This document shows positions 4,052 to 32,505 of a stretch of DNA of 47,986 nucleotides, in pieces. The position numbers and the translations under genes are program-made. Numbering within the stretch: position 1 is the stretch's first letter; each line of letters starts with the position of its first letter. Origin of the DNA: a virus; IMG/VR virus record IMGVR_UViG_3300025646_000072, positions 1 to 47,986 of that record; one strand, given 5' to 3'. The notes under the pieces were generated by a model. It did no database searches and had not been told where the DNA came from. It saw only the letters and a list, made by a program, of their open reading frames with translations.

Positions 4052-5856
4052 TGGCAACATTAGAAGATTTAGAAAAAAGAGTTGGAATGATGGGGGGATT
4101 ATACCCTTATGATCTATATTCGCTATCCCAAGGAACTGATCCAATGAGCCAAGCTGTACGAGGATTCAGTGGTGGAGTAAATATACCTGACGTTAATTTA
4201 CAAGGTGCTCCTACGTTGACTCCTGGTCAAGTTACAGGAGTTAGTGGTGTAACTGGTGGTAGTTTACCAAAAGGTAACTTAACCACAGGAACTTCTACAG
4301 GAACTATGGGTAATAGGTTAGACGAACTAGTAAACGATAGTTCTCCTGTAACTGCTGAAGGCATAGGAACGATGGCTGAACTTTTAGGCTCTATTGATCC
4401 AGATAAATTAGATATGGGTAATATCAACACAGTTGCCGATATGTTAGTAAGTCAACAATATCCTAATTTAGGTACTGAACAAAAAGGAAAAGTAATAAAT
4501 TTAATAGCGGATTTATATGCCGCAGGTCAAGACCCTCAGTTCCAACAATCTTATTTTGAAACTAAAAAAAGTTTATCAGCATTAAATAAACAAAAACGTA
4601 TTCAATATCAACAAGCAAAAGCAGCTTCTAAAGATAAAATTTATGGTAAATTATTAGATTATGTTTTAAGAGAAGATAAAGATAGCCCTGTTGGAACTAA
4701 AATTGTTAACGTATTCCGACCTGATGTACTAGAAGGTGGAGGCTCAATAGATGATGCTACACAAAATGCTAGAATTAGAACTAATGCAAATGGAGAAGAA
4801 ATATTAGAAATAGTTTCAGGTGTAGACCAAAACGGAAATAATATTTATCAAACTGCACCAGCAGAAACAGTAGTTATCAACAATCCAGGACAACTACAAA
4901 CATTAAGAGACGGTGCTAGAGGTAAAATTGATTTTAAAGAATACGGTAAAGCGTTAGACGCTAATAATGCAAAAATTGCTGCGGCACAAAACATTGTAGC
5001 TCCAGTTAATCAAATGTTAGAAATAGCTTCTAGTCCGCAAACTCCTAGAGATATTGCAGGGTTTACAGGTGCTATATTTGATACTGTAGGAAGAATAAAA
5101 ACTGAATTAGACGTCCTACAAAATAACGTATTAGGTAAATTAGATAAAGATCAACAAGCTATTGCAAATAGAATTTCAGGTTATTTTGATAATTTAACTG
5201 CAGATAACAACACTACTTCTGCTAATGGATTAGAAAACGCAGTAGATGAAAATGGAAAAGCATTAAATTTTAAATGGTCAGAACTTGGTACACAGGTAGC
5301 TAACAACGCAGTTTATAAAGCTCTCTTTTTAGAATTAGCGTATTATTCATTATTGCTTAAAGGACAAGAATCTAGGGCGGTATCTGATAAAGATATTGTA
5401 AACGCTTTAAGAACTATTGGTGGAGACGCTTCAACACCTGAAGCCGCTATGAGGACTATTGTAAATTTTACTTCTAAAGCATTAAGTGCCGCAGAAAACG
5501 AAGTAGCTGCTGCAAGAAAAGTATATAAAACCAAAGCTTATGAACCTTTTAGAAATCAATTCGGTTATTCTGAAGAAGATATTGATAACGAATGGCAAGG
5601 TCCAATAACCTCTCTTATGAATCCGTCTAGTAATTACAATCAAGAGTTTACAGAATTTTTAAACTTTGCTCAAATATACGGTGGTGATATAGGGAATCAA
5701 AAAGGTCCGTTTAATAGATATTTAGCACCTTTTGTAGGTAGTGTTTTACAACAACAATCTCAAACTGGTAAAAATTTACCAAAAGAAGAACTAACTAACG
5801 AAGACATTGCACTTAATGCATTAAAAGCCGCAGGAATTAAAATAGGGTCTCAATAA
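4051..5856 (+). CDS. Large virion protein, unknown family (601 aa)
   Basis: This 601-residue protein has no recognised catalytic motif. The N-terminal 120 residues are Gly/Thr/Pro-rich and probably flexible. The remainder alternates predicted helices rich in Ala, Asn, Lys and Gln. It is coupled upstream by a one-base overlap and followed after one base by the 1018-residue gene. Position between other giant low-complexity proteins and upstream of the strand switch suggests an internal virion (ejection) protein or tail-hub component. Confidence 0.5.
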   Translation: MATLEDLEKRVGMMGGLYPYDLYSLSQGTDPMSQAVRGFSGGVNIPDVNLQGAPTLTPGQVTGVSGVTGGSLPKGNLTTGTSTGTMGNRLDELVNDSSPVTAEGIGTMAELLGSIDPDKLDMGNINTVADMLVSQQYPNLGTEQKGKVINLIADLYAAGQDPQFQQSYFETKKSLSALNKQKRIQYQQAKAASKDKIYGKLLDYVLREDKDSPVGTKIVNVFRPDVLEGGGSIDDATQNARIRTNANGEEILEIVSGVDQNGNNIYQTAPAETVVINNPGQLQTLRDGARGKIDFKEYGKALDANNAKIAAAQNIVAPVNQMLEIASSPQTPRDIAGFTGAIFDTVGRIKTELDVLQNNVLGKLDKDQQAIANRISGYFDNLTADNNTTSANGLENAVDENGKALNFKWSELGTQVANNAVYKALFLELAYYSLLLKGQESRAVSDKDIVNALRTIGGDASTPEAAMRTIVNFTSKALSAAENEVAAARKVYKTKAYEPFRNQFGYSEEDIDNEWQGPITSLMNPSSNYNQEFTEFLNFAQIYGGDIGNQKGPFNRYLAPFVGSVLQQQSQTGKNLPKEELTNEDIALNALKAAGIKIGSQ

Positions 5857-5857
5857 T

Positions 5858-8800
5858 ATGGCAGAGCCAATAACTCTTTTACGTCAAGAAGATTTAAACG
5901 TTATTGAAAGTATTAATGCTTTATCTGAAGACGAAAAACAAAAACTATTTTCTGATAATCCTGCTGCTAAAGATTATTACGATACTTTAGTTAAAAGAGT
6001 TGAAGCTCCTAGAACACCTATAGAATACGATCCCACAACTCTACAAAGTGGGATACAAACAGTTGGGAAAGGTTTAACTGCTATTGGAGAAACTGCAGAA
6101 AAACTAGAAGAAAAATTACCTCCAGTACAATTACTTCCGTTCTTAAATACACAAGATATTTTAAATGCTTATAAAAACATTTATAAACCTATTGGTATGT
6201 GGCTTGACGATGAAGAAAAACTAAGGCAAGCAGGAGAAATAGGTATAGATATAAATACAACTGGTGCTAATCTTTTAACAAGATTAAAATCTGGTTTTGG
6301 CTCTAGACAACTTTCTTTTGAAGATACTAAAAAATTATTAAGCGAACAACTTGGTAAAGAACCATATTACATGGAAGATATCGAAGGTGTTGGAGTAGTT
6401 TTTCAAGAAAATAAAGGTGATCGCTTAGTAGCTTTTAACCGTCCAGGAGCTGACGTAGGTGATGTTGTTGAGTTTATAGGAGAAGAAGCTTTACCATTAG
6501 GTTTAGACGTAGCAACACAAATAGCATTAACAAAAAATTTAAAAAGATTACCGCAAAGCACATTGAATAAAGTTTTTTCTGGTGCTTCTACTGCTACTAC
6601 ATCAGGCGTTACAACTTACATGGGGGAACTTACAAAATTAAAAGTAGGTCAAGATTTATTTGGTTTAAATAAAGATAAAAATTTTACTGATCTTTTAGAA
6701 GAATCTGTGAATCCAGCATTATTATCAGCTGGAGGTACTGCTGCTTTTAATTTAGTAGGAACATTTGCTACAGGCTTATATAGAGCTTTTAATCAAGGTA
6801 AAATCCCTAATGAGGTTGTAAACGATATTAATGAAACTTTACTTAGGATAAAAGAAAAAGGCGAAGGAGCTGAAGTTTTACCAACAGGTGAAATACCTAA
6901 CTTTAAACCTACGTTAGGACAAAGAACAAAAGACCCTGAACTTCTTGCATTAGAAGATGCATTTATTCTTGCACCAGGAGCAGATCAAAACGTCAGAAGA
7001 AAATATTTAGCACAACTTGATGATAACGAAGAGGCTTTAGTTGAATACGCTACAAAACTTGCAGACGAATTTGGTTTAGATTACGCTAATCAAGCGATAG
7101 AGGTCTTCGGCAGAAATTTTAAATCTGCTGCTGGAGATAAAGCAGATGTATTAAAACAAAGAGTTTTAGATAGTTATAAACTTTCAAGGGAAACTGCTGG
7201 GGCAAGTATAAAAGGCTTAGATGGATATGAAGGGGCAGCAGGTGATTTAGGATTAGATTTATTAACGATTACTAATAAATCAGCTGATGAACTTACCGAA
7301 GGAGATACAGTATTACAGACATTATTAAATAGAGCTAAAGAACAAAGTAATACGATATTTGAAACTGTAAAACAGGCAGTAGGTGTATTACCTGCTAGAC
7401 AAACTAATACTTATAATGTCCTTAAAAAATTAGTAGACGATCCAGGAGAAAGATCAATATTTACTGCATTAAATGACCCTACTTTTACAAACAGAGTATT
7501 TCCTGATCCTGCAGAAGCAAAAGAATTATTATTAAGATTAAGTAATCGAGATGCTAATGGTAGGTTTACTACTCCTTTAAATTTATCTGAATTAATTGCT
7601 ACTAGAAAGTTTTTAAATATGGCTAAAGGTGGTAAAAAAGACATAGATCTAGATGTTAGAGAAGTTAACGAACTATTAAAAGCTATAGATCAAGATATAG
7701 CTGATTCTCTTAAATCAGCTGATTTAAAAGGTGGAAAAGTAGTAGTAGAAGGTCAGGAACTACTACCAAGTGAGGCTTGGAGATTTGCTAACGATAGATA
7801 TACACAGGCTAATAAATTAGGACGAAAACAATTTATAGGTGAAGTAAGAGCAGGGAAAATTCAACCTTCACAACTTTTTGATATGACCATGTCTAAAAGC
7901 GTTAGAGGTGCGAGAACTAACGAATATTTTGATGACTTGTATGAAGTATTAGAACTTGGTGACGATAAACTTATAACGGATTTACGTTTCGCATTTGGTG
8001 AAAGATTAAAAGACACTATTAAAGATACTAACATAGCAAATAGAAATAAAGCGGTTAATGAATTTTTAGATCTACATAGTGGTATTTTTAAAAAACTATA
8101 CCCTACTAAAGGTGATCAATCTGCATTTAGGTTAGCGGCTCGTGATTTAGATAACGTAGCGAAATCTAAAATAAAATACGATAATGCTATAGACCAAATT
8201 AATAAAAAATACGGTCAATACACAGGTAAAACAGACGACGTAATACAAAATATTTATAGTATTTTTAAAGGTACACCTGAAGAAAGCTTGTTGCAATTAA
8301 ATGGTCGTAGAAAAGAATTAGCTAAAATATTAAATACTAGCCCTGAATTAAAAAACCAATTTCAATATCATCTACAACAGGTTTTATTAAGAGATATGAA
8401 ATCTGTTGATCCTTTTTATGGTGATATATTAGATCTAGATAAATTAGTTAAAATAATACAAGACCCTAATTTTGAAAAATCATATGGAACATTTTTCAAT
8501 AAAGAGTATATTAACAATCTTAAGAAGTTAGCAGAAGTTACACAATTTACTAATAAAAGAATTCAATCAAAAATACCTCAAGAATCTAGGCAAAATGCGA
8601 AAGATATTGTGTCTAAAATGACTACTCCTTTTTCTGAAGGACAACAAGCAGCACAAGGTATTTTAGGTCCATTGAACCCTATTAGTGTTAAATTTAGAAT
8701 TTACGATAAAATACAATTAAACAGAGGGTTTAAAACATTAAATAATTTAATATTAGATGCTGACGCTTTAGATAGTTTTATTAAAAACAGATTTAGTACA

Positions 8801-10578: not shown

Positions 10579-12009
10579 CCAAGCTTGAAAACCGTCTCCT
10601 AAGACTTGTTTTGCTAAATCGTGTTTCGCCCTTAAAGACTTTACTATCTTTTCATCAATAGTATCTTTGGTTGTAAGGTCATAATAAGTAACTTTATTTT
10701 CTTGACCTATTCTATGAGCACGGTCTTCAGACTGTAATCTTTTTTCTAGATCAAAACTATTAGAATAATAAATTACGTTGTTAGCTTTAGTTAACGTAAT
10801 ACCATAACCAGCAGTCATTTGATTACCTACGAAAAATCTAGGGTATTCGTTATCGGATTGGAATTCTTTAATCGCTGACTTTCTATGGTCTAGGTCTGTA
10901 TCCCCATAATAACTAACTACACTTGCTCCACCATACTCTTTTTGTAAAGCTTTGGTAATTTTTTCTATATTGTGAACATAGTTCGCCCATATGATAACTT
11001 TTCCATCCATATAAGAAATAAGTTCCATCATAGCATCTATTCTATTATTATCTATATCTATAATTTCATCTTGATCGTTTCTTACAAAACCACAAATCAT
11101 GGTATGTAATCTTAAAAGCTGTGTCATGACAGAAGTTGCGGTAACAGTTTCTTGGTCTTTTAAGACTGCCATCGCATCTTTTTTCATTTCTTTATATAAT
11201 TTATTTTGTTCAGGTGTTAATTCAACATAATGTTTGTTATAAATTTTATCAGGTAAATCAAGGCATTCTTTCTTTAAAACTCTGAAACTATAGGCTTGTG
11301 TAAGCGTCTTTAGTTCGTGTAAGTTCCTATATCCTTTAACTTCACGAAAGCTATGAGACCCTATTGATCTTTGAATGATCTCTGCAAAGTGGTTTTGAAA
11401 TGAATAATAAGATTGGAAACCTAATATGTGTGTATCAAGAAATTTGAACTGTGTGTAGAAGTCTAAAGGTGATCTTGTAATAGGAAAACCTGTAAGTATT
11501 CTACGAAACTTTGCATGTGCACTAATTTTTAATAAACTTTTTGTTCTATTAGCTTTTGGGTTTTTAATAGTTGTACTTTCATCTATAGCTATTAAAGAAT
11601 TAGTAGACTGTAATAATTTTTCTGTAAAGATGCGACCTTTCTCAGAAGAAAAAGCTTCAACGTTTATAACTAAGATTCTTAATTTATCTGTTTCCGTAAA
11701 CAGTTTCATAAGAGCTTCTTGTTTTCTTTTAGTAGGTGAGGATTTCCAAAGTGTGGTATAGCACTCTACGTGGTCAGGCATGTGTGTAGGTAACTCTTTA
11801 TCTATCCAGTTTAGATATACTCCTTTAGGTGCGATAATAACTGCGGTATTAATTGCCCCTCTATCGTAGAGAATAGCTATGTTATCTATAAGAACTTTAG
11901 ATTTACCTGTACCCATTTCCATAAAAAATGCATATGCAGGCTTATTCCAACTTTGTTTTAAAGCCTCTAATTGATGTTCATAAGGTACTGTTTTAAACTT
12001 ATATTTCAT
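10570..12009 (-). CDS. SNF2-like SF2 helicase / DNA translocase
   Basis: This 479-residue protein shows superfamily 2 helicase motifs in order: Q-motif-like PYEHQLEAL near residue 10, Walker A MGTGKS at 32-37, Walker B IDEST at 142-146, motif III-like LTGFP near 172, and motif VI QSEDRAHRIGQ at 426-436. The AHRIGQ signature is characteristic of the SNF2/RapA branch. It probably translocates on duplex DNA in replication, repair or recombination. It is the only minus-strand gene in the window, so it must have its own promoter in the gap upstream of 12,009, divergent from the replication operon. Confidence 0.85.
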   Translation of the reverse strand: MKYKFKTVPYEHQLEALKQSWNKPAYAFFMEMGTGKSKVLIDNIAILYDRGAINTAVIIAPKGVYLNWIDKELPTHMPDHVECYTTLWKSSPTKRKQEALMKLFTETDKLRILVINVEAFSSEKGRIFTEKLLQSTNSLIAIDESTTIKNPKANRTKSLLKISAHAKFRRILTGFPITRSPLDFYTQFKFLDTHILGFQSYYSFQNHFAEIIQRSIGSHSFREVKGYRNLHELKTLTQAYSFRVLKKECLDLPDKIYNKHYVELTPEQNKLYKEMKKDAMAVLKDQETVTATSVMTQLLRLHTMICGFVRNDQDEIIDIDNNRIDAMMELISYMDGKVIIWANYVHNIEKITKALQKEYGGASVVSYYGDTDLDHRKSAIKEFQSDNEYPRFFVGNQMTAGYGITLTKANNVIYYSNSFDLEKRLQSEDRAHRIGQENKVTYYDLTTKDTIDEKIVKSLRAKHDLAKQVLGDGFQAWLS

Positions 12010-26708: not shown

Positions 26709-26906
26709 ATGAAAGCAGAATGTAGAATTTGTTCAGAGCCAGTTGACGAAGGTCGCTGGGCTCTAGGTAGAAATACCTGTTTAGAATGTGGTGAGATACA
26801 AGCTAGAGAGCTTGCCACCAAAAGACGTATGCAGATTGCTCCGATGTATAACAAAGGTGCATATCAGTATATAACTGAAAACGATCTACTACATATTGGT
26901 AGATAA
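26709..26906 (+). CDS. 65-residue zinc-ribbon phage protein
   Basis: The product MKAECRICSEPVDEGRWALG has C5-x2-C8, and C24-x2-C27 follows in CLECGEIQAR, forming a treble-clef-like or ribbon zinc site. The motif EGRWALG...TC..CGEIQAR recurs in small proteins of marine phages in my memory. It is the only gene between a recurrent-class promoter and the structured segment at 26,907. Function is unknown. Confidence 0.65.
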   Translation: MKAECRICSEPVDEGRWALGRNTCLECGEIQARELATKRRMQIAPMYNKGAYQYITENDLLHIGR

Positions 26907-27380
26907 ATTTTTGTGTGCGAGGGGTGAAGGTGAAATTAGCTGTTACTGAGCCTTCCACTTGGTGCTAACGAGATTCACGAGGTTAGTTAAATGAGACTTG
27001 TTAAACACTCAAGCCAAGCGATACTCCAACAGCCCACACGAAAACGTAGTTAGGAAAGAGCCTTGTAAAAGCCTTTGAAAAATAAGGTTAGGATAAAAGT
27101 AAATGAGAACTACACCTTCATGCACTAACTACAAATGTAAGGTGTCCTGTTAAGCGATTAGTACAGGAATGGACTTAAATAGCTTCCTGTTGGATGGGTT
27201 TATAAGCATCCTATAAACATTGCCTTACACCCTAGTATAGCCAGTGATTGGTCGTACAACAATCCGTCACTGAGTAGCCAACGGATACTGGTTATACTAT
27301 GTGGTCAACAAATAGTCATTAATTGTTGTTAAAGATAAATTGAAACAAATGCATACTAAATTTATCGCCACGCCTTTTTA
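26907..27380 (+). ncRNA. Candidate large structured non-coding RNA
   Basis: These 474 bases hold no ORF worth calling but many long complementary blocks: a 13-bp helix 27233-27245 with 27287-27299 (one G-U pair); CCTTACA 27223-27229 with TGTAAGG 27136-27142; TCCTGT 27145-27150 with ACAGGA 27163-27168; GTTTATA 27198-27204 with TATAAAC 27212-27218; GATAAAT 27334-27340 with ATTTATC 27360-27366; ATCCG 27262-27266 with CGGAT 27282-27286; TTAGC 26936-26940 with GCTAA 26964-26968. Several cross or compete (ACACCTT 27112-27118 also pairs with AAGGTGT 27139-27145; TTCCTGT 27184-27190 also pairs with ACAGGAA 27163-27169). I do not recognise a known class. Pairings are read by eye, and ends are approximate. 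Confidence 0.55.
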
Positions 27381-27390
27381 GAGAAAGTTT

Positions 27391-27564
27391 ATGAAAGAAA
27401 ATACAGATAAAAAACAGTGTCATAAAGATGCTCATGACTGGGGTTACAGTTATAATATTGGAGTATTAGGAACATTAGTTTCTATATTTGAATGTGAGAA
27501 TTGTGGATTACGTATGAATAATCCTGATTCTACAATTATTAAGGAGAAGAAGAAAAATGTCTGA
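27391..27564 (+). CDS. 57-residue Cys/His small protein
   Basis: MKENTDKKQCHKDAHDWGYS and later FECENCGLRM give C10, H11, H15, C35 and C38, consistent with a small zinc site. Ribosome binding site GAGAAAG lies close to the ATG. The stop overlaps the next start (ATGTCTGA). It is the first gene after the structured segment. Function is unknown. Confidence 0.55.
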   Translation: MKENTDKKQCHKDAHDWGYSYNIGVLGTLVSIFECENCGLRMNNPDSTIIKEKKKNV

Positions 27565-28237: not shown

Positions 28238-28238
28238 C

Positions 28239-28381
28239 TGAGTCAGGAACTCCTATTAATATCGTTGCGAGGGGCAACGTCAAGAAACTATACTTCCTGA
28301 CTCAAACAAATCGGTAAAAGTTTTTAATCATTTTGTTTTCTTTTATCGGTTAATTCATAATCTGTATAGTTTCTACCCCTC
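28239..28381 (+). ncRNA. Candidate structured RNA with crossing 10-11 bp helices
   Basis: TGAGTCAGGAA 28239-28249 pairs perfectly with TTCCTGACTCA 28294-28304. Within it, CGTTGC 28263-28268 pairs with GCAACG 28274-28279 around GAGGG. GAAACTATAC 28284-28293, inside the first loop, pairs perfectly with GTATAGTTTC 28364-28373 beyond it, forming a pseudoknot, and GAGGGG 28269-28274 can extend it with CCCCTC 28376-28381. GGTAAAAG 28313-28320 pairs with CTTTTATC 28340-28347. Four long matches in 143 bases are far beyond a simple terminator. Function unknown; ends approximate. Confidence 0.6.
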
Positions 28382-28390
28382 ACTAATCGC

Positions 28391-28419
28391 TTTACTTTCT
28401 AGTAAATGTAACTTATATT
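28391..28419 (+). promoter_or_regulatory. Recurrent-class promoter
   Basis: CTAATCGCTTTACTTTC with TTTACT at 28391-28396, 17 bases, TATATT at 28414-28419. It begins 10 bases after the end of the structured segment and drives the cluster from 28,460. Confidence 0.6.
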
Positions 28420-30945: not shown

Positions 30946-31231
30946 TATTTATACAGAACGTGATGCGGTGTTTAGCACTGGTTTCACTTTAGTTGCTAGA
31001 AACGTGACCTTAGATAATGCTAAAAAGATTATCGCCCTTTACGATCAGCTTTGGGATATTGTTGTTGACAAAGGCTCTGAGCACTTAGAAAAAGGTCAAG
31101 AAACCGATTATTTGACAGCCGATACAGTTCTTCGTAGCTGGGAAGGTTGTGATGTTGTTGCGGTTAGTGTTGATAATTTGCGTCGTTATTATTACGATGA
31201 CGGTGAGTGGGATACACTTAATAATAGTTGA
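30932..31231 (+). CDS. Hypothetical protein (99 aa)
   Basis: ATG 30932 (MELFNIYTERDAVFSTGFTL) follows GGAGGAAG and is preferred over the longer in-frame start. The sequence alternates strands and helices, with CDVVAVSVDNLRRYYYDDGE near the end. No family is recognised. It is the last gene before a structured leader segment. Confidence 0.5.
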   Translation: MELFNIYTERDAVFSTGFTLVARNVTLDNAKKIIALYDQLWDIVVDKGSEHLEKGQETDYLTADTVLRSWEGCDVVAVSVDNLRRYYYDDGEWDTLNNS

Positions 31232-31257
31232 TGAGGTCAAGGGTTATGGGTTATAAT
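31228..31257 (+). promoter_or_regulatory. Promoter for the 31.3 kb leader RNA (TTGATG-18-TATAAT)
   Basis: TTGATG at 31228-31233, 18 bases, perfect TATAAT at 31252-31257. The expected start, near 31264, falls at the base of the hairpin that begins at 31261, so the transcript would open with that hairpin. Confidence 0.5.
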
Positions 31258-31260
31258 AGT

Positions 31261-31374
31261 TTTGGTTGCTCTCCTGCCCTCCTTGTATCAACATCATATC
31301 AAATGGAGAGTAGCCAAACGCTCTCTGTGGAATCGACTCCTATTAGATTATTCATATTCGGTTTCGCAGAGGGC
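31261..31374 (+). promoter_or_regulatory. Structured 5' leader with anti-Shine-Dalgarno loop
   Basis: TTTGGTTGCTCTCC 31261-31274 pairs with GGAGAGTAGCCAAA 31305-31318 over 14 pairs (two G-U). Its 30-base loop contains CCTCCTT, and CTCCTT 31279-31284 is the exact complement of AAGGAG 31384-31389, the ribosome binding site of the next gene. A second stem joins GCTCTCTG 31320-31327 and CAGAGGGC 31367-31374. The arrangement suggests cis translational control or a trans-acting antisense RNA. Confidence 0.55.
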
Positions 31375-31395
31375 ACTTTTAGAAAGGAGAAATAA

Positions 31396-31659: not shown

Positions 31660-32156
31660 ATATATTTGTATTAAACGAAGATCCAATCCAAGCTGCAAAA
31701 GACCAATGCGATAAGCATGTAGTTAAAATGATATTAGAAACAGCTCAGATGTTATCGACTACTCAGCGTTGGTTTTACGAAGACGATTATTGTAATAGAG
31801 TTGGTTATTATAAGATTGCTCATATTAACCACCCTTGTACGATTTGGGCTAGGACAGATGCTAGTAATTACCAATGGTTATACGAACATTTTGTAGCGTT
31901 ATGTGATGAATATACGAAACGCTATGGCAAAGTCCATTTAACCGATACTAAGTTGCGAGATAAGCTATCTTACATTCCTGGAGATATGCCAAGTTCTTAT
32001 CCAAATAAGACAACACCATTTGCCCAAGCTATGCCTGACGAATATAAAGATCCAACCGATGCAGTTAAAGCATATCGGAACTATTACATTGGCGAGAAGT
32101 CAGGGTTTGCTAAATGGGAGTATACCGACCCTCCTGAATGGTTCGTTGCCAGTTGA
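31656..32156 (+). CDS. Conserved phage protein, CDKHVVKM...ETAQ family (166 aa)
   Basis: It opens MNIFVLNEDPIQAAKDQCDK and contains KHVVKMILETAQML, HINHPCTIWARTDASNYQWL, TPFAQAMPDEYK and AYRNYYIGEKS. These blocks recur in many phage and bacterial hypothetical proteins in my memory. Conserved Asp, Lys-His, Glu, His and Trp residues suggest an enzyme with a nucleotide or DNA substrate, but I do not know a demonstrated function. It ends at a strong terminator that closes the accessory region. Confidence 0.6.
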   Translation: MNIFVLNEDPIQAAKDQCDKHVVKMILETAQMLSTTQRWFYEDDYCNRVGYYKIAHINHPCTIWARTDASNYQWLYEHFVALCDEYTKRYGKVHLTDTKLRDKLSYIPGDMPSSYPNKTTPFAQAMPDEYKDPTDAVKAYRNYYIGEKSGFAKWEYTDPPEWFVAS

Positions 32157-32160
32157 TCTG

Positions 32161-32183
32161 ACCCCTCATAAGAGGGGTTTTTT
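32161..32183 (+). terminator. Strong intrinsic terminator closing the accessory region
   Basis: ACCCCTC-ATAA-GAGGGGT (perfect 7-bp stem, 4-base loop) followed by T5. It separates the accessory region from the packaging module. Confidence 0.9.
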
Positions 32184-32505
32184 GTGCTTGGTTAGCTCTC
32201 CAGTCTATTAATTTATTAGTCTTATATAGTTATTTCTAAAATATTTTATTTTTTAAAAAAAATTTCTAAAATGGCTAATATCACTAATAAAGTAATAGAA
32301 TCGTCGTCAAAGTCTCGTGGTTAAAGGTTTTTTCGGTCTATTACTTTTTTTAAAATCTATTAGATTTTAACCAACCTATTACTTTTTTAGAGTTGTGGGC
32401 AGGTGGATGCGGCACAGTATATAATTCAGAAAGGAAAAGTTTTTTATTTTTTCTTTTTTAATTTAAAATTAGAGAAATATATCGACGCAACAGGGGTTTA
32501 AGCCT
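32184..32505 (+). other. Gene-free T-rich segment with direct and inverted repeats upstream of terS
   Basis: About 320 bases without a credible gene. Contents: CTATTACTTTTTT twice (32338-32350, 32376-32388) and its inverse AAAGTAATAG at 32289-32298; a palindrome TAAAATCTA-T-TAGATTTTA at 32351-32369 between the direct copies; TTTCTAAAAT twice near 32233 and 32263; and a TATAAT hexamer at 32420-32425 without a good -35. Location just before the terminase small subunit gene suggests a packaging recognition site or replication origin, or only a promoter region. Confidence 0.5.

Follow-up and report, generated by a model that had tools for sequence, protein, structure and literature searches.

Autonomous RNA domains, mostly pseudoknotted, form a modular array whose parts recur shuffled and nested in marine phages

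A 474-nt non-coding segment of a marine bacterial virus consists of five small RNA domains in tandem (O, B, C, E and F), with a sixth, A, set into one of the arms of O. The domains, of about 60-130 nt and each with its own closing helix, form a string of autonomous, mostly pseudoknotted units that lie in the sense orientation to the genes, are shuffled and nested among marine phages and have no match in Rfam. That the segment is a modular array of RNA domains is near certain. The window, i.e., the whole stretch of DNA analysed, is a virus record of 47,986 bases, and the nearest GenBank kin of its portal protein and DNA polymerase are those of the Pelagibacter phages HTVC023P and HTVC027P, phage 023Pt_psg01 and phage DSL-LC04, at about 47-57% identity. 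The preliminary description had taken the segment for one large RNA recalling GOLLD and ROOL, a candidate that was rejected, since the domains move independently of each other and are found solo, permuted or nested in related phages.

Composition of the array

No credible ORF was found in 26907-27390, a gap flanked by same-strand ORFs of 65 and 57 amino acids, so that the non-coding character first ascribed to the segment was confirmed and its limits proved right to within a few bases (Table 1). The relatives of three window proteins were gathered from IMG/VR and then compared with the segment, whose pieces recur in other phages and other contexts. Thus, homologous copies of the domains occur in many other IMG/VR phage contigs in an order differing from that of the window: C-B-O[A]-further hairpin-E in contig L198, O[A] followed by other domains and then F in L003, B then A in L011, A then B in L175, and A then F in L213. 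The contigs L048 and L084 carry the host domain O with an unrelated arm replacing A; single domains elsewhere also stand solo or nested in other host domains. The content of the third arm of O varies across phages: it is the domain A, a hairpin of the G type described below, another hairpin, a short loop or an unrelated arm of 75 nt. When 2.9 million viral contigs were scanned with patterns, 22 stretches matched for A, 23 for O and 8 for E, and 45 for a looser pattern of B, part of them chance matches in coding DNA; a very loose search for F gave mostly chance matches in coding DNA and was rejected. Near-duplicate contigs are many; copies of the domains were counted as distinct sequences.

Table 1. 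Features of the RNA array and the reading frames beside it, in window positions
Feature	Position or pairing strands	Strand	Remark
65-aa zinc-ribbon-like ORF	26709..26906	+	directly upstream of array; context, outside RNA
Whole array, order O[A]-B-C-E-F	26913..27371	+	ORF-free; pieces recur independently in other phages
Domain O	26913..27039	+	13 aligned copies, guest excised
O P1	26913-26917/27035-27039	+	covariation alignment of O
O P2a	26921-26925/27023-27027	+	covariation alignment of O
O P2b	26926-26930/26951-26955	+	covariation alignment of O
O pseudoknot	26939-26944/27028-27033	+	covariation alignment of O
O third arm, swappable guest site	~26956-27022	+	guests vary among phages
Domain A, nested in O arm	26958..27018	+	16 aligned copies; solo copies in other contigs
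A P1	26958-26963/27013-27018	+	covariation alignment of A
A P2	26965-26969/26982-26986	+	covariation alignment of A
A pseudoknot	26977-26981/26997-27001	+	covariation alignment of A
Domain B	27046..27132	+	~20 distinct copies; inner arm variable, ATGAGAACTAMACC strand conserved
B P1	27046-27053/27125-27132	+	paired in 8/8 chosen sequences, double changes at 7/8 pairs
Domain C, double pseudoknot	27137..27228	+	homologues in L226, L198; three sequences only
C P1	27137-27142/27223-27228	+	C homologue comparison
C first pseudoknot	27144-27147/27171-27174 with 27164-27169/27184-27189	+	C homologue comparison
C second pseudoknot	27192-27196/27207-27211 with 27198-27203/27213-27218	+	C homologue comparison
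Domain E	27233..27299	+	7 distinct copies
E P1	27233-27245/27287-27299	+	double changes
E P2	TCCGT/ACGGA	+	double changes
E candidate pseudoknot	TTGG/CCAA	+	invariant in all copies, so covariation uninformative
Domain F	27301..27371	+	6 distinct copies, each just 5' of a gene start
F P1	GTGG/CCAC	+	invariant in all copies
F P2	CAACA/TGTTG	+	double changes
F P3	27334-27340/27360-27366	+	double changes
57-aa ORF	27391..27564	+	directly downstream of array; context, outside RNA

The structures of A and O are carried by covariation. For A, the 16 distinct, gapless copies form 16 pairs with 99.2% of the cells paired and two-sided changes at 7 pairs, and sliding the partners out of register brings the pairing to at most 42%; for O, the 13 copies with the guest arm excised form 21 pairs with 100% of the cells paired and double changes at 9 pairs. 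The covariation reached 0.424 versus 0.109 in shuffles for A and 0.372 versus 0.130 for O, with none of 500 shuffles as high in either case, these statistics being shuffle counts rather than phylogeny-corrected probabilities. As the copies of both domains came mostly from pattern scans, positions fixed in the patterns are invariant partly by design; each doubly changed pair has one or both of its sides either unspecified in the pattern or beyond the stretch that it covers. The pseudoknot of A (ACGAG/CTTGT) is mostly invariant, with two copies changed on both sides (ACGTG/CATGT and ACGGG/CCTGT), and that of O (GCTGTT/AACAGC) becomes GCAGTT/AACTGC and GTAGTT/AACTAC in other copies. A covariance model of A scored the true copies above 82 bits and all else below 24, and the model-R1 matches below 24 bits were treated as chance and left out. 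The carriers of domain A include L211 and L222, whose terminase and portal resemble those of the window, as well as phages with other gene sets, such as L207 (primase/helicase), L209 and L214 (distant prohead protease), and A is near-invariant across these phages with unrelated genes.

The domains B, C, E and F all show double changes, in fewer copies and with hand-picked helices, the shuffle controls covering A and O alone. In C, they fall in four helices among three sequences, the window and its L226 and L198 homologues. The claim of a structured RNA was borne out by the homologues, while several of the helices first listed were not. The homologues support 27233-27245/27287-27299 as E P1, 27136-27142/27223-27229 as C P1, 27334-27340/27360-27366 as F P3, GTGAAGG/CCTTCCAC as O P2, and 27198-27204/27212-27218 and ACAGGAA/TTCCTGT (27184-27190) as parts of the pseudoknots of C, the former being a hairpin of one of them and the latter belonging to the other. 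Instead of 27145-27150/27163-27168, they allow TGTTAA 27148-27153/TTAGTA 27158-27163 together with GTCC 27144-27147/GGAC 27171-27174; the pairing of AAGGTGT with 27112-27118 lacks their support, and so does the proposed 26936-26940/26964-26968 helix, whose bases fall in the loop of the O pseudoknot and in A P2. By the refuting condition first proposed, the folding energy of the plus strand should have fallen below that of shuffled sequence, and it did not (-109.5 versus -106.0 +/- 6.3, z -0.56, with 29 of 100 shuffles as good), hence the support for a structured RNA is comparative rather than energetic, and the covariation overrules the energy.

Strand, gene context and searches

The RNA is on the plus strand, because the conserved G-U pairs, such as the O pair 13-49 (GU in 7 copies, GC in 6) and the A pair 12-62 (UG in 15 copies, UA in 1), would turn into A-C mismatches if the opposite strand were the RNA. 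The minus strand has the better folding energy (z -2.25) and was rejected by these pairs and by the gene orientation. A Shine-Dalgarno (SD) site with an ORF lies within 80 nt downstream of 52 of the 149 distinct domain copies on the sense strand versus 2 in the antisense control, and the nearest downstream ORF is on the same strand in most cases. The domain F and solo G are found 5-20 nt upstream of an SD site, with 6-15 nt from the F end to the SD site in the copies scored; in the window, F ends a few bases short of the ribosome-binding site that serves the next ORF. In L211 and L222, a -10 box precedes solo A by about 10 nt, the domain thus beginning close to the predicted start of transcription, only a few bases from it, and the arrays in L214 and L215 are also preceded by strong promoter-like boxes; these promoters and SD sites are consensus matches. 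The window array lies between genes rather than at a 5' end; the promoter-like matches near it are no commoner than in shuffled sequence, and no intrinsic terminator was found at its end. The arrays are surrounded by small accessory genes, and the genes downstream of the domains are diverse, mostly coding for small proteins without known identity, with a phage primase-helicase-like protein in L339 and L345 and no common pathway. The 65-aa ORF and the ORF that follows solo G in L299 (minus strand, oriented position 11138) have a common C-terminal motif, YNKGAYQ.I....IGR, and different N-termini.

Rfam 15 gave nothing at the gathering score in the whole window or in 13 array loci, in line with the early statement that no known class was matched, and no domain matches its riboswitch and ribozyme families; with E<=10, the 474-nt segment gave a single chance-level snoRNA match (sR28, E 6.4). 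With the covariation and the pseudoknots, this upholds the claim of an undescribed structured RNA. Within the limit set by blastn sensitivity, the segment and four related arrays found nothing relevant among 50,697 GenBank phages, and 10 kb around the segment had no megablast match. In the examined regions of HTVC023P, HTVC027P, 023Pt_psg01 and DSL-LC04, none of the domains A, O, E, G and D could be recognised, and B gave two weak matches at the level of chance. Non-coding, seemingly hairpin-rich gaps that match none of these domains occur in 023Pt_psg01 (L278, 3190-3390) and in the cultured HTVC027P (L277, 9960-10340). One exact pattern each for A and O had no exact match in 84,980 cellular genomes. 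No published description of the domains was found in a search that leaves preprints and most subscription journals outside. ARAGORN detected no tRNA or tmRNA in the window, and ten window proteins, the array neighbours included, had no match to a toxin family in PHROGs, the only collection searched.

Several further domains are related to this organisation. The domain G, with the consensus [stem]-UAUAAAN-CCUAGAUUNAAUUCGGGG-[stem], is missing from the window array and occurs in at least 120 stretches, with 73 distinct contexts among the matches listed, both inside the arms of O, B and F and solo just 5' of ribosome-binding sites; three examples with full stems are far more stable than their shuffled counterparts (z -3.6 to -5.0), which one short-stem example is not. 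The domain D (GTTCCATATGGA...GGGTTACACCA...GACTAGCGTGTGTAATC...TTGTTCCCTC), also absent from the window, is common to L142 16715-16830, L133 16548-16660 and L007 5990-6094. Arrays of about 700-800 nt with further unnamed domain types are seen on the minus strand of L209 (~400-1090) and L214 (~5400-6130), where they follow TTGACA/TATAGT-like promoters and the prohead protease is distantly like that of haloarchaeal tailed viruses. Two other places in the window resemble RNA domains: the ORF-free 28238-28305, closed by GAGTCAGGAA/TTCCTGACTC just 5' of a promoter-like box at 28391, and 31228-31378, with GGTTGCTCTCC/GGAGAGTAGCC and GCTCTCTG/CAGAGGGC directly 5' of a ribosome-binding site; for neither did the loci compared yield a homologue, near-identical contigs aside. 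The AT-rich, ORF-poor stretch 32150-32500, with repeated CTATTAC/CTAATA-like words, keeps both its place and its sequence in many related phages and is perhaps an origin or regulatory region.

Possible roles of the domains

From the structure, strand, modularity, nesting, distribution and gene-relative position of the domains we tentatively infer that they are transcribed and may act in cis on the carrying transcript, docking the host RNA machinery and so favouring phage transcripts, a proposal that leads the others while falling somewhat short of being probable. Such compact autonomous domains would sit in phage mRNAs as parts of leaders or intercistronic stretches, where each would dock host RNA polymerase (as the put RNA of HK022 does), the ribosome or decay enzymes. 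Because the sequence of its closing helix is free, a domain could come, go, change its place in the row or be inserted into an arm of another domain. The reading as cis leader or intercistronic modules comes from their being co-directional with the downstream genes, often just past promoters or before ribosome-binding sites; the diversity of these genes is easier to reconcile with general machinery than with a switch serving one pathway. The covariation and pseudoknots of A and O, the double changes in B, C, E and F, the varied order, the exchanged guests, the nesting of G, the sense strand fixed by G-U pairs, the start of solo A past a -10 box and the positions relative to SD sites and ORFs count for docking in cis, which on the other hand does not explain five or six different domains per transcript; the intercistronic place of the window array and its promoter-like matches at the shuffled level also count against it.

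The best analogue of this working mode may be the put elements of phage HK022, which are likened here by description, with no family membership claimed. The putL RNA, of about 70 nt and just downstream of an early promoter, binds RNA polymerase and contains a triplex, with the pairing beginning at +3, and put comprises two stem-loops, once per early operon (PMC9378689). Both putL and putR are phage RNA elements near the transcript start that act as RNA without a dedicated protein, and the domains would resemble them in this; solo A follows a -10 box in L211 and L222, and the window array lies between genes. The domains described here differ in that several unrelated, pseudoknotted ones follow one another, also between genes as in the window, and nest.

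The alternatives rank as decoys, mRNA protectors, riboswitches and ribozymes, in that order. It is unlikely that the array acts in trans as a bait scaffold that titrates host factors (RNases, RNA-binding regulators, RNA-triggered defence proteins or toxins) and is swapped like counter-defence genes. The fast turnover, the nesting of different domains and the small accessory genes around the arrays count for such a decoy. A nested decoy need only bind, the position of its closing helix being irrelevant; however, the sense-strand positions tied to gene starts and the window array end without an intrinsic terminator favour cis action, and the near-invariance of A in phages with unrelated genes is unlike a host-specific arms race. 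ToxI, the RNA antitoxin of type III systems, consists of near-identical tandem repeats beside an endoribonuclease gene, and phages use such systems too. It shares with the arrays the stringing of small pseudoknotted RNAs, whereas every domain in the row is here of a different family and the ten scanned window proteins match no toxin family in PHROGs.

Rather less likely again, the domains might protect mRNA, shielding its 5' end or parts further downstream from decay in the manner of 5' stem-loops or exonuclease-resistant RNAs, a role to which the place of solo A by the predicted transcript start, the compactness of the pseudoknots and the generic downstream genes would be suited; yet a domain nested within another leaves the 5' end no better shielded, simple hairpins would be enough, and the sequence conservation of A and G exceeds what a barrier needs. 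Ligand sensing is improbable. Each domain would then be a metabolite aptamer controlling the next gene, in keeping with the aptamer-like size, the invariant cores and the setting of F and solo G before SD sites, and glutamine riboswitches (PMC9004378; Rfam glnA motifs) are likewise small pseudoknotted RNAs known from marine phages. Unlike them, the domains match no Rfam riboswitch, have no obvious expression platform and stand as rows of unrelated types before one small gene without known identity, with the nested ones far from any platform and the downstream genes without a common pathway. Small ribozymes occur in phages, and the compact nested pseudoknots with invariant cores are similar to them; that the domains are self-cleaving ribozymes cutting the transcript to pieces is nevertheless highly improbable, given the lack of an Rfam ribozyme match and the fact that a guest able to cleave would sever the very O domain whose arm it occupies.

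A single large ornate RNA of the GOLLD/ROOL type with a variable periphery is hardly credible: the size of 460 nt, the phage origin and the pseudoknots agree with it, as does the variable 5' half of GOLLD, but each of these is one large RNA whose overall architecture is conserved and which often lies close to tRNA islands (PMC12286853), while the small independent domains, solo and permuted in other phages, conserve no global architecture. As families, GOLLD and ROOL are excluded because there is no Rfam match and no fixed architecture, the domains being permuted, lost and nested; the window has no tRNA genes either, a proximity that is not obligatory for the family. Phage tRNA gene arrays are tandem small structured RNAs which phages gain, lose and reorder, and in this they resemble the rows of domains; tRNAs do not nest, however, and the domains do.

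The novelty of the array rests on its organisation by shuffling and nesting, as the domains taken singly would be new RNA families of a familiar sort. To our knowledge, the swapping and nesting of pseudoknotted domains as a mode of RNA evolution is described in no other system. At least seven undescribed RNA families would be added at one stroke, and their domains, short and sharply bounded, are thus suited to structure work, pull-downs and transcript mapping. A wider conception, doubtful though less so than any of the alternatives above, is a shared pool of autonomous RNA domains in marine phages, shuffled and nested like protein domains, each docking a different part of host expression or defence; if true, the pool would be in RNA what the islands of accessory and anti-defence genes are in phage genomes.
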